Positions 11,368 through 22,044 of a stretch of 22,044 nucleotides of DNA are shown in pieces. A model generated the notes under the pieces. The model was not told where the DNA came from and made no database searches. It saw only the letters and a program-made list of their open reading frames with translations. Both the position numbers and the translations under genes were made by a program. The first letter of the stretch is position 1. Every line of letters begins with the position of its first letter. This stretch comes from Candidatus Bipolaricaulis sp. (GTDB lineage: Bacteria > Bipolaricaulota > Bipolaricaulia > Bipolaricaulales > Bipolaricaulaceae): assembly GCA_020062805.1 (NCBI GenBank), contig JAGUVP010000103.1:1-22044 (forward strand), read 5' to 3'.

Positions 11368-11398
11368 GGCCGTAGACTGTCACGATGGCTAGCTTAAC

Positions 11399-11440
11399 CC
11401 CGCCAGGCCCAGCATGGCCTGGGCCTGGCGGGTCTTGCTT
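11399..11440 (+). terminator. Strong hairpin between the secreted gene and the peptide importer operon
   Basis: A perfect 13-bp stem, CCCGCCAGGCCCA paired with TGGGCCTGGCGGG (11399-11411 and 11420-11432), with an 8-base loop, followed by TCTTGCTT. It lies 32 bases after the stop codon and 41 bases before the next start. The T tract is imperfect, so it may only partly stop transcription. Confidence 0.72.
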
Positions 11441-11480
11441 ACTACAGATGCCCAATGCTCAGCGCTACAGGGAGGAGGGG

Positions 11481-13448
11481 ATGTCCACGAAGCGGCGGTT
11501 CCTGCCGGCCTGCCTCGCGCTGATTGCCGGTGCAGCTTTGCTTCTGACAGGCTGCCAGAAGAGCGAGTATCCCCGACGGACCGATGAGACGAACACCCTG
11601 TATGTGGGCGTGGTCGAATCGTCGTTCCCTACCGCGTTCATGCCCTGGCTCTCTCGGGAAGGCATCGCGCCCACGATCGCCAGCATGCTCTACAGCACGC
11701 TGTTTACGTACGATGACGATACTGGCGGGTTCCTGCCCAACCTCGCCCGGCAGTGGTACTACGTGGACGTCCAGGGTCGGCCCATCGTGACGGATTCGGG
11801 GAGCGTTGACTACGAGCGCCTGGAAGGACACGGTCTGAAGACCCTCCGCAACCCACAGACGGGTCAGATCGAGCGGTATCTCACCGTTCGGATCGAGCTC
11901 GACCCGCGCGCCCGGTGGAGCGATGGGCAGCCGGTGACCGCCGACGACGTGTACTACACCCTGGACATCGCCCGGAACAACTACCTGTCGAACCATGCCG
12001 GCGCTCTGGCCTGGACCGCCGATCTCCTTCACCTGTACTCCAATTCCGGCCAGCTCCAGCTACAGGGGATCTTCACCTATAACCACGGGGCTGTTGAACA
12101 GGGGTATCCCATTGGCGACACGGATCGGGACCAGGTGATCTACTTCCATGTCCGCAGCGTTCTGGGTGCCGTAACCAGCCTGTTCACAACGGTCCTGATC
12201 CTGCCCAGGCACCTCTGGGAGCCGGTCGTCAGCCGGGAGAACCAGCTGAACAGCCGGAACCCCGATGCGCGGATGCAGTACCTGTACCAGAACCCCATGG
12301 GGAACGGTCCGTACGTGCTCGACCCGACGGCATCAGGACCGTCGCAACTCGTCCTGCGGCGCAACGAGCTCTACCACCTGACCCGCGACGATGGCCCCCC
12401 CCTCTATACCGTGGAGACGATCCGCCTGATTCTGTACCAGGAACTCAACGTAGCCATCTACGCGGTCATGCAGGGCCATATCGATATGCTCAGCGCTGCC
12501 CTGAGCCCCAACTACGTCCGCCTGTTCGAAGATCGGGATGACTTGTTCCTGTCGGTTGCCGAGGGCACATTCACCCAGACCCTGGTGTTCAACGTCAACC
12601 CGGTGGCGGGTGAGCGGACTCCCATGCGCAGCCTGCTGGCCAACCGAGACCTGCGTCAGGCCATTGCGCTGGCCATCGACAGTGAGATGCTCATTCGTTT
12701 GGTGGCCAATGGCGCGGCCACACGGGTGAGCGCCGGTCTGATCCGGGCGACCTTGACCGACTTCTACAATCCCAACGCGGATATCCTCAAGGGGGACTAC
12801 GCGGCGCGGCTGGAGCGAGCGAACCAGCTACTGGACCAGATCCTGCCCGAGAAAGACCAGCACGGCTACCGTCTGCTCAACGGCGAACGGGTATCCTTCG
12901 GCGTTCTGGGCCATCCTGGCGAGATCGAGCTGATTGCGTTTCTGGAGGTCCAGCTTCAGAAGATCGGTATCGAGATCCGCTATCAGGCCAAGGGCAGCTC
13001 CCCGGAGACCACCTACCTGTGGACGAGCCGCTTCGACATGACCATTCACGGGGTGATCTTCTCGTTAGCGAATGTGGACATCATGTTCAACGCCCACTTT
13101 GTGGCCCTGGGACGCACCTCCAACTACGGACGGTTGATCTACTCCGTTCTGGCGAAGGGCATCGAGGAGATGCGATCCACCCTGAACCTGCACCGCAAGT
13201 ACCAGCTTCTGTACGAGCTGCAGCCCGTGATCGCGGAAGTGTTCTACAAGGTGCCTCTGTACAGCCCGCAGGTCATCTCGATTGCCCGTACGGACCGGTA
13301 CACGGGCTACGAGGTGGTTCCTGGAGCTACGGTCTTCAACTCCACCAATCTGCAACAGATCCGGCGCGTAGATTCCGTGGGCGGCGCGGCGTCATCCGAA
13401 CCGGCTGGGGAGAGCTTGTCGCAGCGCATCGGGGGTGAGGCGATGTGA
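11481..13448 (+). CDS. Peptide ABC importer substrate-binding lipoprotein (family 5, DppA/OppA-like)
   Basis: A 655-residue periplasmic or surface-tethered binding protein that delivers peptides (possibly nickel or oligosaccharides in other family members) to the permease encoded next. A lipoprotein signal ends in LLTGC with Cys25 as the lipidated residue. Family 5 hallmarks follow: RWSDGQPVTADDVYYTLD, then LRQAIALAIDSEML in the second lobe. At 655 residues it is longer than the usual 500-600. ATG 11481 is chosen over an in-frame ATG at 11385 because GGAGGAGGGG precedes it directly and the signal peptide starts there; the earlier start would place the terminator hairpin inside the coding region. 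It overlaps the permease gene by four bases. Confidence 0.93.
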   Translation: MSTKRRFLPACLALIAGAALLLTGCQKSEYPRRTDETNTLYVGVVESSFPTAFMPWLSREGIAPTIASMLYSTLFTYDDDTGGFLPNLARQWYYVDVQGRPIVTDSGSVDYERLEGHGLKTLRNPQTGQIERYLTVRIELDPRARWSDGQPVTADDVYYTLDIARNNYLSNHAGALAWTADLLHLYSNSGQLQLQGIFTYNHGAVEQGYPIGDTDRDQVIYFHVRSVLGAVTSLFTTVLILPRHLWEPVVSRENQLNSRNPDARMQYLYQNPMGNGPYVLDPTASGPSQLVLRRNELYHLTRDDGPPLYTVETIRLILYQELNVAIYAVMQGHIDMLSAALSPNYVRLFEDRDDLFLSVAEGTFTQTLVFNVNPVAGERTPMRSLLANRDLRQAIALAIDSEMLIRLVANGAATRVSAGLIRATLTDFYNPNADILKGDYAARLERANQLLDQILPEKDQHGYRLLNGERVSFGVLGHPGEIELIAFLEVQLQKIGIEIRYQAKGSSPETTYLWTSRFDMTIHGVIFSLANVDIMFNAHFVALGRTSNYGRLIYSVLAKGIEEMRSTLNLHRKYQLLYELQPVIAEVFYKVPLYSPQVISIARTDRYTGYEVVPGATVFNSTNLQQIRRVDSVGGAASSEPAGESLSQRIGGEAM

Positions 13449-14443
13449 AGAGAAGCTATGTCATCAAAAGGATTCTGTACGCGGTGTTCATCTTCTTCGT
13501 CGTGCTGACGCTCAACTTCTTCATCCCCCGCATCGGCGTGCACGATCCCGCGGAGCGTTACTACCCGCCGCAGGGTGGGATGTCCACCATCGAGTACGAG
13601 ATCATCAAGCAGTTCACCCGTGAGCAGTACGGTTTCGATGTGTCGACTTTCCAGCAGTACGTCCGCTACCTGCGGGGGCTGCTGCGCTTGGACCTGGGCA
13701 CCTCGCTTCGCTCCGGATCCCCCAAAGTGACGGCGCTGATCGCCCAGCGGTTGCCGTGGACCCTGGTGCTGTCGGTGAGCACGCTCGTCATCAGCTTGGT
13801 CACCGGCCTGCTGTTCGGCACGATGGCTGCCTGGAAGCGCGGTCGGTGGCAGGATACGCTGCTGCTGAATGCGTCAACCATCAGTGTGGCGCTGCCCAGC
13901 TTCTTCATCGCTTTGATGCTGTCCTTCTACCTCGGGTTCAGACTGGAGCTGTTTCCGGCGTACACGAACCCCAACATGGTTGCCCAGTTTGACTGGAGCT
14001 GGGACGCCATCCGGATGGTGTTCACCAACGCCGCCCTGCCCATCATGAGCATGTCGCTGGGCGGGATCATCGGCTACTCCCAGATCACCCGGAACAGCGT
14101 GATCGCTGTGACCAACGAGGACTACGTCGTCACGGCCCGAGCCAAGGGACTGCCTCAGGCCACGGTCTTGTACAAGCACGTTCTGCGGAACGCTCTGCTC
14201 CCGTTGGCGACCTCGATCGGCATGAACATCGGCGGCTTGATCGGCGGGGCCATCATCATCGAGCAGGTGTTCAACTGGCAGGGCATGGGTACCCTGTTTC
14301 TGGAAGCGAACAGCACCAAGGACTACCCGTTGATGATGGGTATCATGTTGTTCCTTTCAGCGTTTGCGATTCTGGCCAACTTGGTGACCGAGCTGCTCTA
14401 CGTGATTCTGGATCCGCGCGTAACAGTTGGAGACAAACGATGA
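13445..14443 (+). CDS. dppB: Peptide ABC importer permease, DppB-like
   Basis: A 332-residue inner-membrane permease, close to the usual DppB length. The first helix (ILYAVFIFFVVLTLNFFIP) is followed by a large periplasmic region and then the conserved five-helix core. The cytoplasmic EAA loop, which docks with the ATPase, is clear (EDYVVTARAKGLPQ, then YKHVLRNALLPL). The start is GTG 13445, overlapping the preceding stop codon as GTGA, so the two genes are translationally coupled. It should pair with the DppC-like protein to form the channel. Whether the cargo is di- or oligopeptide is not resolved, so the symbol is by family only. Confidence 0.93.
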   Translation: MKRSYVIKRILYAVFIFFVVLTLNFFIPRIGVHDPAERYYPPQGGMSTIEYEIIKQFTREQYGFDVSTFQQYVRYLRGLLRLDLGTSLRSGSPKVTALIAQRLPWTLVLSVSTLVISLVTGLLFGTMAAWKRGRWQDTLLLNASTISVALPSFFIALMLSFYLGFRLELFPAYTNPNMVAQFDWSWDAIRMVFTNAALPIMSMSLGGIIGYSQITRNSVIAVTNEDYVVTARAKGLPQATVLYKHVLRNALLPLATSIGMNIGGLIGGAIIIEQVFNWQGMGTLFLEANSTKDYPLMMGIMLFLSAFAILANLVTELLYVILDPRVTVGDKR

Positions 14444-15471
14444 GTCGGCCCAACGTGCTCCTCCAAGTTGCGCAGAGGGGCGGTTCGCTCGTGAGCCTCG
14501 TTAGGAAGCTGTGGCAGCATCCCCAAGGCAGGTTGGGGCTGATCCTGGCTGGCTGCTTGGTACTCGTGGCGATCCTCGCCCCGATTCTGGCTCCGTACGA
14601 TCCCTACGATGTCACCCAGCGGGCTGCCAAGGGGCTGCACCCAAGTTGGCAGCATCCCCTGGGGACCACCACCACCACCGGGCAGGACATATTCAGCATG
14701 CTCATCTACGGCTCACGGGTCTCCTTGATGATCGGCATCGGCACCGGGGTGGCCCTCGCTTTCCTGGGTGCCGTGATGGGTGTCATGGCCGGGTACCTGG
14801 GTGGCTTCGTCGATAACCTCATCATGCGGGTTGTCGACATCATGCTGGTCATACCGACGCTGCCGCTCATCATCGTTCTGACCAGCCTGTTGGGCAGGAG
14901 TTACTTCGTGATCGTTCTGGTGTTCGTGATCTTCGGGTGGACCGGACTGGCGAGGGTCATACGCTCCCTGGTGTTGGTGCTCAAGAACAGCAACTACGTG
15001 AAGGCCGCTGAACTGGCCGGCGCCAGCAGGTGGTACATCATGACCAAGCACATCCTCCCGGGAACCTCTCACCTCATCATCATGAACACCGCCTTGACCA
15101 GCGCCGGCATCATGGTTGCGGAGGCGGGGCTGAGCTTCTTGGGCTTGGGTGATCCCACGGCGATCAGTTGGGGAAAGATGTTGGCTGAAGCTCAAGGCGG
15201 CGGAGCACTGCTATTTGGGGCGTGGTGGTGGATCATCGCCCCCGGGATCGGCATCTTCCTCTCCGTGTTCTCGTTCATGCGGATCGGCATCGTCATGGAA
15301 GAGATCTTCAACCCCAGGATGAAGGCATCGAGCAGCATCTACAAGCTCTTCAAGCACCTGAACAACACCTACCTGGACGAGGTGTTCCGGTCCATGGAAG
15401 AGGAGGAGAGCGTAGTCCGGGAACCTCCCGATCGGTCCGATGCCCCCACCCCGGAAGGGTGCCATGGCTGA
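14440..15471 (+). CDS. dppC: Peptide ABC importer permease, DppC-like, with an extended C-terminus
   Basis: A 343-residue second permease subunit. The N-terminal helix (GLILAGCLVLVAILAPILAP) leads to the typical APYDPY and HPLGT-TTTGQDIF segments, and the EAA loop is present (YVKAAELAGASRW, then KHILPG). DppC proteins usually run to about 300 residues. The extra 45-50 here form a C-terminal tail after the last helix (from about NPRMKAS), rich in Glu and Asp, including FRSMEEEESVV. The tail would be cytoplasmic beside the ATPases. The gene overlaps its neighbours (ATGA with the upstream stop; eight bases with the ATPase start). Confidence 0.93.
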   Translation: MSRPNVLLQVAQRGGSLVSLVRKLWQHPQGRLGLILAGCLVLVAILAPILAPYDPYDVTQRAAKGLHPSWQHPLGTTTTTGQDIFSMLIYGSRVSLMIGIGTGVALAFLGAVMGVMAGYLGGFVDNLIMRVVDIMLVIPTLPLIIVLTSLLGRSYFVIVLVFVIFGWTGLARVIRSLVLVLKNSNYVKAAELAGASRWYIMTKHILPGTSHLIIMNTALTSAGIMVAEAGLSFLGLGDPTAISWGKMLAEAQGGGALLFGAWWWIIAPGIGIFLSVFSFMRIGIVMEEIFNPRMKASSSIYKLFKHLNNTYLDEVFRSMEEEESVVREPPDRSDAPTPEGCHG

Positions 15472-16456
15472 TACGGTGCTTGGAGTCAGGAATCTGAAGG
15501 TGGCCTTCCCGTGCCCGGGTGGGGTCATCCGGGCGGTGGAGGGCATCGACCTGGACATCCACCGGGGCGAGTGCGCCGCTCTGGTGGGGGAGTCCGGTTG
15601 CGGCAAGAGCGTCAGCGCCCAGGCGATCATGAAGCTGCTCAACACCCCCCCCGCGGTCTGCCGAGTAGACAAGCTTTGGCTCGATGATCTGGACCTGACC
15701 CATCTCCCAGACAGACAGATGGAGCGGATCCGCGGGAAGCACATGGCCATGATCTTCCAGGACGCCATGACCGCGCTGAACCCGGTGTTGACCGTGGGCA
15801 AGCAGATTGACGAGATCTACCTCCGTCACAGCCGGCTGTCCCGACGAGAAGCCCGGCAGCGCACCATCGAGGCACTTGAGCTGGTGGAGGTCCCCGAAGC
15901 TCGGTCCCGGGCCAACAGCTATCCCCATCAGCTATCGGGAGGGATGCGCCAGCGGGTGCTCATTGCCTTGGCATTCGCCTGCGTGCCCAAACTGATCATC
16001 GCCGATGAGCCGACCACCGCCCTCGACGTCACCATCCAAGCCCAGGTGTTGGACGTGCTGAAGAACATGCAGCTTGTCCATCGGGTGTCGGCCCTGCTGA
16101 TCACCCACGATCTGAGTGTGGTGGCCAACATGGCGGATACGGTATACGTCATGTACGCCGGCAAGATCGTGGAGCGGGCTGCGATGCAGGAGCTCTTCCT
16201 GGAGCCGCTGCACCCGTACACCCACGGCCTGCTGGCTTCCGTCCCCCGGATCTCCGACGAGAGGCAGCCGTTTGTCCAGATCCCGGACGCCGTGCCCCAT
16301 CCAATGCGCAAACCGGCGGGCTGCTACTTCCATCCCCGCTGTCCCCGTTCGAACGACCCATGCCGGCAGCGCATGCCCCGCCTGGAAGGTCCGGACGATG
16401 GGCGGGCAGTCCGCTGTTGGCATCCTTTGCGTCAACCGCATGAGGTGCGATCATGA
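15464..16456 (+). CDS. dppD: Peptide ABC importer ATPase, DppD-like
   Basis: A 330-residue ATPase that drives uptake with the DppF-like partner. Walker A is GESGCGKS (42-49), the Q-loop is MIFQDAMTALNP, the signature is LSGGMRQR (157-164) and Walker B is LIIADEP with Glu182; the H-loop is LLITHDL. The C-terminal oligopeptide-transporter region has the Cys pattern GCYFHPRCP, then PCRQ and CWHP, which in this family can bind an iron-sulfur cluster. ATG 15464 fits family alignment and has GGAAGGG upstream; an in-frame ATG at 15440 would add eight residues and has no ribosome site. Confidence 0.94.
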   Translation: MADTVLGVRNLKVAFPCPGGVIRAVEGIDLDIHRGECAALVGESGCGKSVSAQAIMKLLNTPPAVCRVDKLWLDDLDLTHLPDRQMERIRGKHMAMIFQDAMTALNPVLTVGKQIDEIYLRHSRLSRREARQRTIEALELVEVPEARSRANSYPHQLSGGMRQRVLIALAFACVPKLIIADEPTTALDVTIQAQVLDVLKNMQLVHRVSALLITHDLSVVANMADTVYVMYAGKIVERAAMQELFLEPLHPYTHGLLASVPRISDERQPFVQIPDAVPHPMRKPAGCYFHPRCPRSNDPCRQRMPRLEGPDDGRAVRCWHPLRQPHEVRS

Positions 16457-17502
16457 CCCGGAACAGCCCCGATCCCCAACCCTTGCTGGAGATGGAGAAC
16501 GTCTCGGTCGATTTCCCGGTCAAAGGACCCTACCCGTTCAGCAAGAAGCGCTGGATCCAGGCGGTGACCGATGTCAGCCTGGAGGTATCGGAGGGCGAGA
16601 CCTTCGGCATCGTCGGTGAGTCGGGTTGCGGGAAGACCACCCTCGCCAATGCCATGATCGGCATGGTGCGACCGACCGCAGGAACCGTGCGCTTCCAAGG
16701 AGTGGACCTCTACGCGCTGAAGCCCAAGGCGTTCAAGGAGGCTCGGCGCGAGATGCAGATGATCTTCCAGGATCCCTTCTCTTCACTGAATCCAAGGTTC
16801 TCCGTCTACGAGATCATCAGAGAACCCCTGTATATCAGAGGACAGGCCAGCGAGACGGTCATGAAGGGGAAGGTGCGGGAACTCCTGAAGCTGGTCGGAT
16901 TGGATGAGGATGACATGTACCGGTACCCTTCGGACTTCTCCGGCGGGCAGCGTCAGCGAATCGGGATCGCCCGTTCGATCATCCTCAACCCGAGGTTCCT
17001 TGTGTGTGATGAACCTGTCAGTGCGTTGGATGTGTCGGTGCATGCGCAGATTCTGAACCTGCTGATGGACATCCAGAAGAGCCGGCACCTCACCTACGTC
17101 TTCGTCTCGCACAACCTAGCGGTAGTCAAGAACATCTGCCAGAACATGGTGGTGATGTACCTGGGGACGATCATGGAGTCGGGTTCATCGGATGCCATCT
17201 TCGCCAATCCTCTCCATCCCTATACGAAGGCTCTGCTATCGGCGGTCCTGGACATCGATGTGACGAAGCCACGCGATCGGATCCTGCTCGAGGGCGACAC
17301 TCCCAGCCCGATCGACCCGCCCGCGGGGTGCAGGTTCTGGCAGCGGTGTCCGTCCGCGATGAAGGGCTGTCGGATCGTTCCCGCGGAGTTGGTGGAAGTC
17401 GAGCCTGACCATCAGGTTGTGTGCCATCTGATCTCCGGTCTCTCTGCTCAGCAGGTGGCGGACGGCCTTCACGAGCCTGTATCCCCGAAGTCCGGCGGGT
17501 GA
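16453..17502 (+). CDS. dppF: Peptide ABC importer ATPase, DppF-like
   Basis: A 349-residue second ATPase. Walker A is GESGCGKT (55-62), the Q-loop is MIFQDPFSSLNP, the signature is FSGGQRQR (162-169) and Walker B is FLVCDEP (182-188), with H-loop FVSHNL. As in its partner, a C-terminal Cys cluster is present (GCRFWQRCP, GCRI, VCHL). The start codon overlaps the upstream stop as ATGA, so it is coupled to the DppD-like gene. The complete A-B-C-D-F gene order on one strand makes this a self-sufficient peptide importer. Confidence 0.94.
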   Translation: MTRNSPDPQPLLEMENVSVDFPVKGPYPFSKKRWIQAVTDVSLEVSEGETFGIVGESGCGKTTLANAMIGMVRPTAGTVRFQGVDLYALKPKAFKEARREMQMIFQDPFSSLNPRFSVYEIIREPLYIRGQASETVMKGKVRELLKLVGLDEDDMYRYPSDFSGGQRQRIGIARSIILNPRFLVCDEPVSALDVSVHAQILNLLMDIQKSRHLTYVFVSHNLAVVKNICQNMVVMYLGTIMESGSSDAIFANPLHPYTKALLSAVLDIDVTKPRDRILLEGDTPSPIDPPAGCRFWQRCPSAMKGCRIVPAELVEVEPDHQVVCHLISGLSAQQVADGLHEPVSPKSGG

Positions 17503-19590: not shown

Positions 19591-19623
19591 GTTCACGATT
19601 CCTTCACATTTCGGCGGTAGACT
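19591..19623 (+). promoter_or_regulatory. Response-regulator-type direct repeats and -10 box before the regulator gene
   Basis: Two abutting 11-base repeats, GTTCACGATTC (19591-19601) and CTTCACATTTC (19602-19612), agree at 8 of 11 positions. They are followed by 5 bases and a -10 box TAGACT (19618-19623). Paired 11-base repeats overlapping the -35 region are the classic target of PhoB/OmpR-family activators. The -10 ends nine bases before the ATG, and no ribosome site exists, so the transcript is probably leaderless. The regulator encoded next is the obvious candidate to bind here. Confidence 0.65.
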
Positions 19624-19632
19624 CGGGTCCCC

Positions 19633-20331
19633 ATGCGCCGCAGCGTGCTCATCGTGGACGACGACCCCAAGCTCGTGGAGTTGCTCCGCCTCTACTTGGA
19701 GCGAGACGGCTACCGCGTGCGCACCGCCGGCACGGGGCGCGAGGCTCTCGACTCGCTGGCCGACGGCCAGCCCGACCTGCTCGTCTTGGACCTCATGCTC
19801 CCAGAGGTGAGTGGTCTTGATGTATGTCGGGCTGTTCGCGAGCGGTCGGACCTGCCCATCATCATGCTCACCGCCAAGACCATGGAGGCGGATCGGATCG
19901 CTGGGTTCAACTGCGGCGCGGATGACTACGTCACGAAGCCGTTCAGCCCTGGCGAGCTGTTAGCGAGGATCCGCGCGGTCCTCCGTCGTGCGGGCAACGA
20001 CGACGGCCCCCCCTCGCTGTCGTTCGGTGATCTGGAGATCGATTTCCTCCGCCACGAGGTGCGCGTGAAGGGCACCACAGCGGGGCTGACCGCGACCGAG
20101 TTCAGGCTGCTGGGGGTCATGGCACGCGAGCCCGGCCGGGTGTTCACGCGCCGGCACCTCATCCACGCCGTCATGGGCTATGACTTCGAGGGGTTTGAAC
20201 GCACGATCGACGCGCACGTGAAGAACATCCGGCGCAAAGTCGGACGGCGTCCGACAGGCCAATCCGTCGTGAAGACCGTGCACGGCGTGGGGTACTCGTT
20301 TGATCCGGAGGGAAAAGAGCGTGTTCAGTAG
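19633..20331 (+). CDS. OmpR/PhoB-family response regulator
   Basis: A 232-residue two-domain DNA-binding regulator. The receiver domain has the acidic pair Asp10-Asp11, phosphoacceptor Asp53 in VLDLMLP, Thr80 in IIMLTAK and Lys102 in VTKPFSP. The C-terminal winged helix includes LTATEFRLLGVMAREPGRVF and the recognition region RTIDAHVKNIRRKVG, ending in VHGVGYSF. Length is typical. It lies 11 bases into overlap with the sensor kinase gene and so forms an operon with it. Phosphorylation by that kinase should switch it on at promoters with 11-base direct repeats, including its own. The stimulus is not evident. Confidence 0.95.
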   Translation: MRRSVLIVDDDPKLVELLRLYLERDGYRVRTAGTGREALDSLADGQPDLLVLDLMLPEVSGLDVCRAVRERSDLPIIMLTAKTMEADRIAGFNCGADDYVTKPFSPGELLARIRAVLRRAGNDDGPPSLSFGDLEIDFLRHEVRVKGTTAGLTATEFRLLGVMAREPGRVFTRRHLIHAVMGYDFEGFERTIDAHVKNIRRKVGRRPTGQSVVKTVHGVGYSFDPEGKERVQ

Positions 20332-21667
20332 CCTCCGCGCGCGCCTTGTCCTCGCGTTCATGGCCATCGTGCTGCTGGCCATCGGGACGGTGGTGGGGGT
20401 CACGCTCTACACGAACACGCAGGTCCGAGGTTTCGTCTCCGACGGGCACTCGGCCCGTCAGATGCGGATGGTGCGGTCCCTCGCCACGTACTACGAGATG
20501 AACCGGACGTGGTCCGGGGTTGCGGCCTGGGTGGAGCAGATGGGAGACCTGTTCGAGGAGAGGGTCTCTCTCGTAGATGCGGAAGGCATCCTGGTCGCCG
20601 GTTACCGAGGGGCAGGGATGGGACGGATGCAAACCTCCCGCGACGGCACCCCGTGCCCGATCACGGTCGATGGTGAGGTGGTGGGGACGCTCCATGTGTG
20701 GAGGGAGTCCAGGGCAGTGGACGCAGAAGAGGCCTTCCTGGTCGGCCTGGGTCGGTCCGCCGTGTGGGCAGGAGCGGTGGCGGCGGTGTCCGGAGTGGGG
20801 ATTGCCCTGTGGCTCACCCGCCGGACCCTGAGGCCTGTGAGAGAGCTGACCTTGGCAACCCGTCGGATGCAAGCTGGCGAGCTGGACCAGCGCGTCACGG
20901 TCTCGTCCAGGGACGAGATCGGCGAACTGGGGACGGCGTTCAACGCGATGGCCGCAGCCCTCACGCACCAGGAGGACCTCCGCCGACAGATGGTCAGCGA
21001 CGTCGCCCACGAGCTGCGCTCGCCGCTGGCGAATGCGCGGGGCTACCTGGAAGCGATCCGGGACGGCGTCCTGGATGCGTCGGCCGAGTCGCTGGACACC
21101 CTTCACGAAGAGGTGATGCTGCTCGCACGCCTGGTGGATGACCTTCAAGACCTCGCGCTTGCTGAGGCGGGCGCTCTGCCGTTGGCCCCCGAGCCCGTTT
21201 CTGTTGAGAGCTTGATGGACCGGGCGCTGGCTGCGGTCGCGCCCGCTGCAAGCCGCTCCGGGGTCACGCTTGAGCGCGACGTGGCAGCGGATCTCCCCGA
21301 TGTCCAGGTCGACCGTCAGCGCGTACTGCAGGTTCTCGGCAACCTCCTCGGGAACGCTCTCCGACACACCCCCCGAGACGGCACGATCACCCTTGGTGCC
21401 AAGTCGGTGAGTTCGTGGGTTGAGTTCCGCGTCCAGGACACGGGATCTGGCATCCCCGGCGACCAGCTTGAGCGGGTGTTCGAGCGCTTCCACCGCGTCG
21501 ACTCGGCCCGATCTCGGGCCACGGGCGGGGCCGGCCTCGGGCTCACCGTTGCTCGGAGGCTCGTGGAGTCCCACGGTGGACGCATCTGGGCAGAGAACGC
21601 ACTCGAGGGGGGTGCCATCCTACGGTTCACCCTTCCGGCGGCGACGTCGGAATCCGATACCCCGTAG
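20321..21667 (+). CDS. Sensor histidine kinase with HAMP domain
   Basis: A 448-residue membrane kinase, partner of the upstream regulator. Helix 1 lies at about 8-30, a sensor region outside the membrane at about 31-143, helix 2 at about 144-165 and a HAMP linker at 166-220. The H-box is SDVAHELRSPL with phosphorylated His230. The ATPase part has N-box NLLGNALRHTP (341-351), G1 DTGSGIP (373-379), F-box FERFHRVD and G2 GGAGLGLTV (402-410). The start is taken as GTG 20321 because GGAGGG lies eight bases before it; a TTG at 20300 would add seven residues with no ribosome site. The sensor region of about 110 residues shows no recognised domain. Confidence 0.94.
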   Translation: MFSSLRARLVLAFMAIVLLAIGTVVGVTLYTNTQVRGFVSDGHSARQMRMVRSLATYYEMNRTWSGVAAWVEQMGDLFEERVSLVDAEGILVAGYRGAGMGRMQTSRDGTPCPITVDGEVVGTLHVWRESRAVDAEEAFLVGLGRSAVWAGAVAAVSGVGIALWLTRRTLRPVRELTLATRRMQAGELDQRVTVSSRDEIGELGTAFNAMAAALTHQEDLRRQMVSDVAHELRSPLANARGYLEAIRDGVLDASAESLDTLHEEVMLLARLVDDLQDLALAEAGALPLAPEPVSVESLMDRALAAVAPAASRSGVTLERDVAADLPDVQVDRQRVLQVLGNLLGNALRHTPRDGTITLGAKSVSSWVEFRVQDTGSGIPGDQLERVFERFHRVDSARSRATGGAGLGLTVARRLVESHGGRIWAENALEGGAILRFTLPAATSESDTP

Positions 21668-21747
21668 CAGCGCTCAGCAGAGATCCAGCCGGAGCACAAG
21701 AGCTGGGAGGGGATCGCCCTGCCCTGCCTCAACTCAGAACGCAGGAT

Positions 21748-21779
21748 CCGCACGCTGCCGGGCGCGTATCGCCGTGCGG
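21748..21779 (+). terminator. Hairpin downstream of the sensor kinase gene
   Basis: A perfect 7-bp inverted repeat, CCGCACG and CGTGCGG around an 18-base loop that could fold further. It is 81 bases after the kinase stop codon and just before the next promoter. No T tract follows, so a terminator role is tentative. Confidence 0.3.
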
Positions 21780-21785
21780 GGAGCG

Positions 21786-21818
21786 CTTCATACCAGATTC
21801 ACACCGGTCGGCTACGTT
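21786..21818 (+). promoter_or_regulatory. Matching direct repeats and -10 box before the Cys-rich peptide gene
   Basis: Abutting 11-base repeats CTTCATACCAG (21786-21796) and ATTCACACCGG (21797-21807) agree at 8 of 11 positions. As at the regulator gene, exactly 5 bases (TCGGC) separate them from a -10 box, TACGTT (21813-21818). The start site would fall near 21825, giving a leader of about 38 bases that contains AAGGAGGT. Confidence 0.62.
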
Positions 21819-21862: not shown

Positions 21863-22044
21863 ATGAAGAAGTGGATGAGCATTGCGGTTGTCATGGCGCT
21901 GATTGGCCTGGTGGCCTTCGGCGCTCTTGCGGCGCACGGTCGCATGGCCAACATGAACCGCGAGGCCCGGGGCGAGTGCACCGGGGAGTGCACGGGCCAG
22001 TGCGAGCCCATGGAGCTCAAGCAGATGCAGCAGCTTCGACTGCA
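21863..22044 (+). CDS. Small secreted Cys-rich protein, cut by the window edge
   Basis: The first 60 codons of a gene that runs off the window. The ATG follows a very strong ribosome site, AAGGAGGTGTTCG. A signal peptide (MKKWMSIAVVMALIGLVAFG, then ALAAH) is followed by RMANMNREARGE, the spaced-cysteine motif CTGECTGQC (residues about 43-51) and PMELKQMQQLRL. Three cysteines at four-residue spacing suggest metal binding or disulfides outside the cytoplasm. No family is recognised. Its promoter matches that of the two-component system upstream, so it is probably a target of that system. Confidence 0.78.
   Translation, partial: MKKWMSIAVVMALIGLVAFGALAAHGRMANMNREARGECTGECTGQCEPMELKQMQQLRL

Follow-up and report, generated by a model that had tools for sequence, protein, structure and literature searches.

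The stretch of DNA analyzed here (the window) is a whole contig of 22,044 nucleotides from a 1.7-Mb draft genome of a Candidatus Bipolaricaulis species that is 73% complete. At its right end, all on the forward strand, lie a two-component system and the first part of a gene that encodes a small, exported, Cys-rich protein. The first gene (19633-20331) encodes a response regulator of 232 amino acids whose Pfam domains Response_reg (PF00072, 112.5 bits) and Trans_reg_C (PF00486, 78.2 bits) both score above cut-off and place it in the OmpR/PhoB family. The second (20321-21667) shares its first 11 bases with the end of the regulator gene and encodes a membrane sensor histidine kinase of 448 amino acids with HAMP, HisKA and HATPase_c domains; its database copy, P0002, has the same length. 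The Cys-rich gene (21863-22044) is cut by the contig end, with 60 codons present. Against curated NCBIfam models the regulator scored highest with MtrA (229.3 bits, cut-off 300) and PhoB (TIGR02154, 228.5 bits, cut-off 296.2) and the kinase with BaeS (261.6 bits, cut-off 500), all below cut-off. For a structure model of the kinase (mean pLDDT 78.5, pTM 0.52), the 50 Foldseek matches listed were mostly histidine-kinase catalytic cores and gave no sensor identity or ligand. The genome holds a single other regulator at E ≤ 1e-30, on contig C88, with 49% identity. A TolC-like gene, named by eye from its translation, is divergent from the paralogous two-component system at two loci (L002 and L302, on G000:C88 and G002:C114). 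Further upstream in the window, positions 11385-17502 hold an oligopeptide-type ABC transporter operon, in which the solute-binding protein (SBP_bac_5) was recognized by Pfam and two permeases and two ATPases were named by eye.

The regulator gene and the Cys-rich gene are preceded by promoters of the same build. Operator 1 (19591-19612, forward strand), before the regulator gene, consists of two abutting 11-base direct repeats, gTTCACgattc (19591-19601) and cTTCACatttc (19602-19612), followed by the spacer ggcgg and the -10 box TAGACT (19618-19623). Operator 2 (21786-21807, forward strand), before the Cys-rich gene, consists of cTTCATaccag (21786-21796) and aTTCACaccgg (21797-21807), followed by the spacer tcggc and the -10 box TACGTT (21813-21818); both -10 boxes were assigned from the sequence by pattern match. 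The sequence-only reading had described, at both promoters, two abutting 11-base repeats with a TTCA(C/T) core, 5 bases and a TAnnnT box, with the second TTCAC 15 bases before the -10 box, and direct reading bore out each particular. Both sites (19592-19623 and 21787-21818) fit TTCAY-N6-TTCAY-N10-TAnnnT, which occurred twice in the window compared with 0 times in 100 dinucleotide shuffles. The exact pattern was found twice in the whole draft genome, both times at these promoters. We did not find a good -35 hexamer at either promoter: the best match to TTGACA was 3/6 with spacers of 15-19 bases, and the 4/6 match at a 20-base spacer coincided with the first repeat itself. The bare repeat lacking a -10 box (TTCAY-N6-TTCAY) was far less specific than the pattern with the -10 box (7 sites in the genome versus 2 in controls) and was left out of the regulon.

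The regulator ATG lies 9 bases past its -10 box (19618-19633), so that the mRNA probably has no leader or almost none; the distance is 8-9 bases in G027 and G010, two of the relatives described below. Several further ORFs downstream of sites begin 6-10 bases after the -10 box. The leader of the Cys-rich gene, by contrast, is 44 bases long and contains a ribosome-binding site.

We compared the two promoters with the phoA promoter of E. coli, which reads TGTCAT-AAAG-TTGTCAC-GGCCGAGACT-TATAGT, that is, TCAT-N7-TCAC-N10-TATAGT. Repeat spacing and distance to the -10 box are the same at phoA and in the window, base for base (TCAY-N7-TCAC-N10-TAnnnT). Regulators of the PhoB kind, which share the fold family of the regulator described here, stand in for the -35 element by contacting sigma. 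PMC3978041 describes the site bound by PhoB as a pair of 11-bp direct repeats; the sequence-only reading had likewise connected OmpR/PhoB regulators with 11-base direct repeats. Since this description and the phoA spacing both fit, the promoter architecture, in which a pair of 11-base direct repeats is set 10 bases from the -10 box and a proper -35 element is absent, is by its sequence of the classical Pho-box kind. The core, however, is TGTCAY in E. coli and TTCAY here, and the outputs here are envelope-like rather than phosphate genes.

The same pattern, which was derived from the window itself, was used to search 100 Bipolaricaulota genomes. It occurred at 100 sites in 48 genomes, compared with 3 for the reversed-pattern control; such repeat pairs are thus not scattered at random genome-wide, and the proposed circuit withstood this comparison. 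With a repeat period of 10 we found 15 sites in the 100 genomes (own control, 5), 7 of which were one recurrent TTCACCTCCTTTCAC element, and with a period of 12 we found 7 (own control, 9). The period-10 element, TTCACCTCCTTTCAC-N10-TATACT, recurs in seven genomes (G085-G088, G048, G090 and G091) and resembles a reversed ribosome-binding site.

To relate the sites to the two-component system, we divided the 40 genomes of the window's family by presence of a kinase ortholog, because G001 and G004 have Cys paralogs and no TTCAY site. Sites were present in 5/5 genomes with the ortholog versus 4/35 without it (p 1.9e-4). One further genome, G002, has neither regulator nor kinase assembled, and two of its contigs stop exactly at this promoter and start codon; counting it as a carrier gave 6/6 versus 3/34 (p 2.2e-5). 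Of the 19 sites in the family, 16 are in the six carrier genomes, G002 included. In 16/16 of these carrier-genome sites, some of which come from close relatives, the second TTCAY is followed by A, a position that the search left unfixed. The two G002 contigs (G002:C74 and G002:C121; L105 and L086) have different upstream DNA and end alike in the regulator promoter and start codon, which suggests either that the system is present in two copies or that the assembly broke at a repeat.

Conservation of the operators was followed through the kinase, which we searched for in 60 genomes, that of the window included. Four other genomes stood apart with full-length matches at E ≤ 1.1e-113 (G010, 87% identity; G021, 51%; G014, 48%; G027, 47%), the next best match having 39% identity at 6e-96. 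In G010 both operators are kept, and a third lies before the next exported-protein gene. In G014 the operator is kept before the Cys gene, the regulator promoter being off the contig; a regulator fragment on contig C201 of this genome belongs to another paralog and lacks an exact site. In both G021 and G027 the regulator is still preceded by the operator. A further copy precedes a Cys-family gene on a separate contig in G021, and in G027 one precedes a Cys gene divergent from the regulator. The regulator promoter therefore carries the site in all four genomes in which it can be read (the window, G010, G021 and G027), plus the two G002 contig ends. Between the window and G010, 28/32 positions were conserved in one operator box versus 167/205 in its flanks, and 29/32 versus 131/166 at the other; because the boxes are only slightly better conserved than the flanks in this pair, the argument from conservation is built on the distant genomes. 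As G010 and G002 are close relatives, the independent cases in the family are limited to G014, G021 and G027 (8 sites). Wherever the DNA upstream of the regulator and of the Cys gene is on a contig in these distant relatives, the operator is kept, also when the Cys gene is divergent or at another place; the operator thus travels with the gene. The repeats were therefore conserved along with the genes in G010, G014, G021 and G027, as the proposed circuit predicts.

Three paralogous regulators (L293, L294 and L295, of G002:C109, G001:C13 and G004:C40) have an upstream TTCAC/TCCAC-N6-TGCAC repeat with an 11-base period, at a distance to any obvious -10 box that differs from that of the TTCAY sites. 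Perhaps these regulators are autoregulated through a diverged site.

The Cys-rich protein belongs to a small family. A search of 5.8 billion proteins with the query cut by the contig end returned one relative, P0001, of 86 amino acids, which matched 0 Pfam families at E ≤ 0.05, CpxP/Spy models included. Full-length relatives have 78-89 amino acids, and the full-length members had no Pfam or NCBIfam match. In an alignment of six, a signal peptide is followed by a cluster of cysteines, two of them invariant, and by the conserved tail GxGPHGxxGGRQxR. With a profile search we found 12 Cys-family genes in 8 of the 100 genomes, forming three groups by sequence. Two of the 12 are cut upstream by contig ends (G000:C169 and G002:C58). 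Out of the 10 with upstream DNA, 8 are preceded by the exact operator geometry: 5 have the TTCAY operator (window, G010:C61, G014, G021 and G027), and 3 have TCCAC in identical geometry (G010:C54, G000:C211 and G004). The TCCAC pattern occurs at 13 sites in the phylum, the three Cys-gene sites included, with 0 in controls. The Cys gene of G001 has the TCCAC pattern with one mismatch, and that of G002:C120 a degenerate form.

Some neighboring observations concern other genes and families. In three genomes of another family (G097:C52, G098:C17 and G099:C42), TCCAC-N6-TCCAC-N10-TAGACT sites are nearly identical. On G010:C61 (locus L037:6753-8483), the third operator, after the Cys gene, precedes an exported protein without a Pfam match (L037:6851-7513), which is followed by a NapH-like membrane polyferredoxin (L037:7530-8483). 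On G080:C114 (L241), an operator is followed by a protein that by eye is like this exported protein of G010.

We fetched all 100 sites of the phylum, of which the window has two, and for each one chose the longest ORF downstream. Nine of the 100 had no downstream ORF of at least 60 amino acids, and some sites lay inside long ORFs; the 90 proteins scanned are the remaining 91 minus one in the wrong frame (L104), with the ORFs of four Cys genes replaced by the correct frame. Proteins of the HtrA/DegP type (Trypsin_2 plus PDZ) made up 10 of the 90 and response regulators 7. Other sites precede a BamA-like Omp85 protein (G078), a SurA-like protein (G047), PepSY proteins (G042 and G088), an MMPL transporter (G070) and, in G014, an outer-membrane efflux protein of the TolC kind (Pfam OEP, 91.1 bits). 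Proteins that looked Spy-like by eye were dropped, those of G048:C126 and G088:C14 because no Pfam match exceeded the cut-off and that of G021:C32 because its DUF2680 match fell below it. In G042 one site lies before a regulator gene, the kinase frame comes next, and a second site, 2137 bases on, precedes an exported PepSY protein; this is the two-promoter layout of the window (2195 bases) with a different output.

Phylum-wide, the genes behind the sites are biased toward the envelope. Hydrophobic N-termini were predicted in 41/76 ORFs after sites versus 208/1741 at random anchors in the same loci, a rough control because the anchors are not promoters; the ORFs were automatic, with run-through frames left out (hence 76) and wrong-frame ones included. 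The downstream genes seen in the window's family encode regulators, Cys-family proteins, the outer-membrane efflux protein and further exported proteins. No HtrA gene was seen among them; all 10 HtrA sites are in other families, where they may be read by paralogous regulators, which speaks against a single regulon. The phylum-wide set looks like envelope control, and the circuit of the window looks real and is one corner of this wider set, with the Cys protein as one output among others.

Several known systems resemble this one in part. According to PMC6737893, the Cpx targets of E. coli include CpxP, Spy, DegP and PpiA, and cpxP is divergent from cpxRA. As in CpxRA-CpxP, a two-component system here has a small exported protein encoded beside it, the Cys gene and the regulator of G027 are arranged divergently, like cpxP and cpxRA, and HtrA/DegP, a Cpx target in that text, is among the phylum-wide downstream genes. 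The sequences, however, scored below the curated Cpx cut-offs (CpxR 182.6 bits versus a cut-off of 341; CpxA 132.6 versus 486), and the Cys protein matched no CpxP/Spy Pfam model. Unlike the CpxR box, which consists of GTAAA repeats, the operator has a TTCAY core. A likeness to BaeSR lies in the kinase's best NCBIfam match, in BaeR being among the best matches of the regulator (208 bits), and in the efflux protein of G014, but both scores lay far below the curated cut-offs (500 for BaeS, 380 for BaeR). By sequence the closest solved relatives of the regulator are the actinobacterial MtrA (2gwr) and RegX3 (2oqr), and Streptomyces PhoP binds 11-base GTTCACC repeats. These systems differ in the missed MtrA cut-off, the phylum and the outputs.

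We considered three other explanations. The first, which we judge unlikely, takes the operators as real but read by another OmpR-type regulator, the two-component system of the window being merely adjacent. Paralogous regulators do exist, and some genomes and families have sites although the search found no close kinase ortholog in them. Against this, within the family the sites go with this system, and the site lies at the regulator's own promoter in every readable genome and at the two G002 contig ends. The C88 paralog is the only other candidate in the genome at the E-value used, and since G001 and G004 have regulators at 48-50% identity and no TTCAY site, such paralogs seem unlikely as the usual readers of the TTCAY operator.

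We think it still less probable that the sites mark the phosphate (Pho) regulon of the phylum, in which the regulator would be a true PhoB and its outputs, the Cys protein among them, would answer phosphate starvation. The operator spacing of phoA and the place of PhoB among the best regulator matches agree with such a regulon. The PhoB score, however, falls short of its cut-off and slightly below that of MtrA, the kinase is nearer to BaeS than to PhoR (175.1 bits, cut-off 334.2), and neither a phosphate transporter nor a phosphatase family was among the 25 listed of the 68 Pfam families in the 90 downstream proteins. Chance repeats in two ordinary promoters have next to no probability. It is true that the window has only two copies and that a pattern drawn from two examples is post hoc, but the shuffles, the 100 sites versus 3 controls and the sharp 11-base period speak against chance, which we rejected on the conservation of the operator in the distant relatives G014, G021 and G027.

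The explanation we favor, with a probability of roughly 0.78, is that an OmpR/PhoB-family two-component system activates its own operon, the Cys-protein gene and a few other envelope genes through TTCAY repeats. An envelope signal would activate the kinase, and the phosphorylated regulator would bind the two 11-base repeats as a head-to-tail dimer. Placed 10 bases from the -10 box, the repeats would replace the -35 element, as at the E. coli Pho promoters, and RNA polymerase would be recruited. Activation of its own operon would give positive feedback and raise the level of the regulator, which would also activate the neighboring gene for the Cys-rich protein and, elsewhere, those for a few other exported or envelope proteins. 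The Cys protein might then buffer the stress or damp the kinase; most likely it would modulate feedback or be an effector that reacts with metals or thiols. By analogy, this layout, in which one type of operator serves both the regulator-kinase operon and the small exported protein next to it, may work like cpxRA-cpxP. The sequence-only reading had proposed a self-amplifying circuit with the Cys-rich protein as its output; the operator common to both genes and kept in distant relatives supports this proposal in part, self-amplification and an envelope signal being probable further steps, and the Cys protein is placed here as one output among others.

We hold only tentatively a broader proposal that extends this explanation to the phylum. 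Bipolaricaulota may have an envelope stress response built on a phylum-wide, Pho-box-shaped operator that is read by an autoregulated family of OmpR-type regulators. One family would have acquired a new class of tiny exported Cys-rich proteins, with three paralog groups, in one of which the TTCAC operator drifted to TCCAC. These proteins would react with metals or thiols as effectors, or modulate the kinase by feedback.

Both the kind of system and the kind of promoter are already known. In the available text of the open-licence literature, which is narrower than print at large, we found no description of the regulon or the Cys family; papers there that name Bipolaricaulota with two-component systems, response regulators or regulons are sparse and, by title, are community or metagenome surveys. 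The evidence from sequence points to a response to envelope stress that is so far undescribed, although the kind of switch it uses is well known. The sharp operator is a first handle, from sequence alone, on the envelope regulon of the phylum, and it ties an otherwise unrecognized Cys-rich protein family to a regulator. If our explanation is true, a promoter geometry known best for its part in phosphate control, that of the Pho box, is used to control the envelope in a distant phylum.
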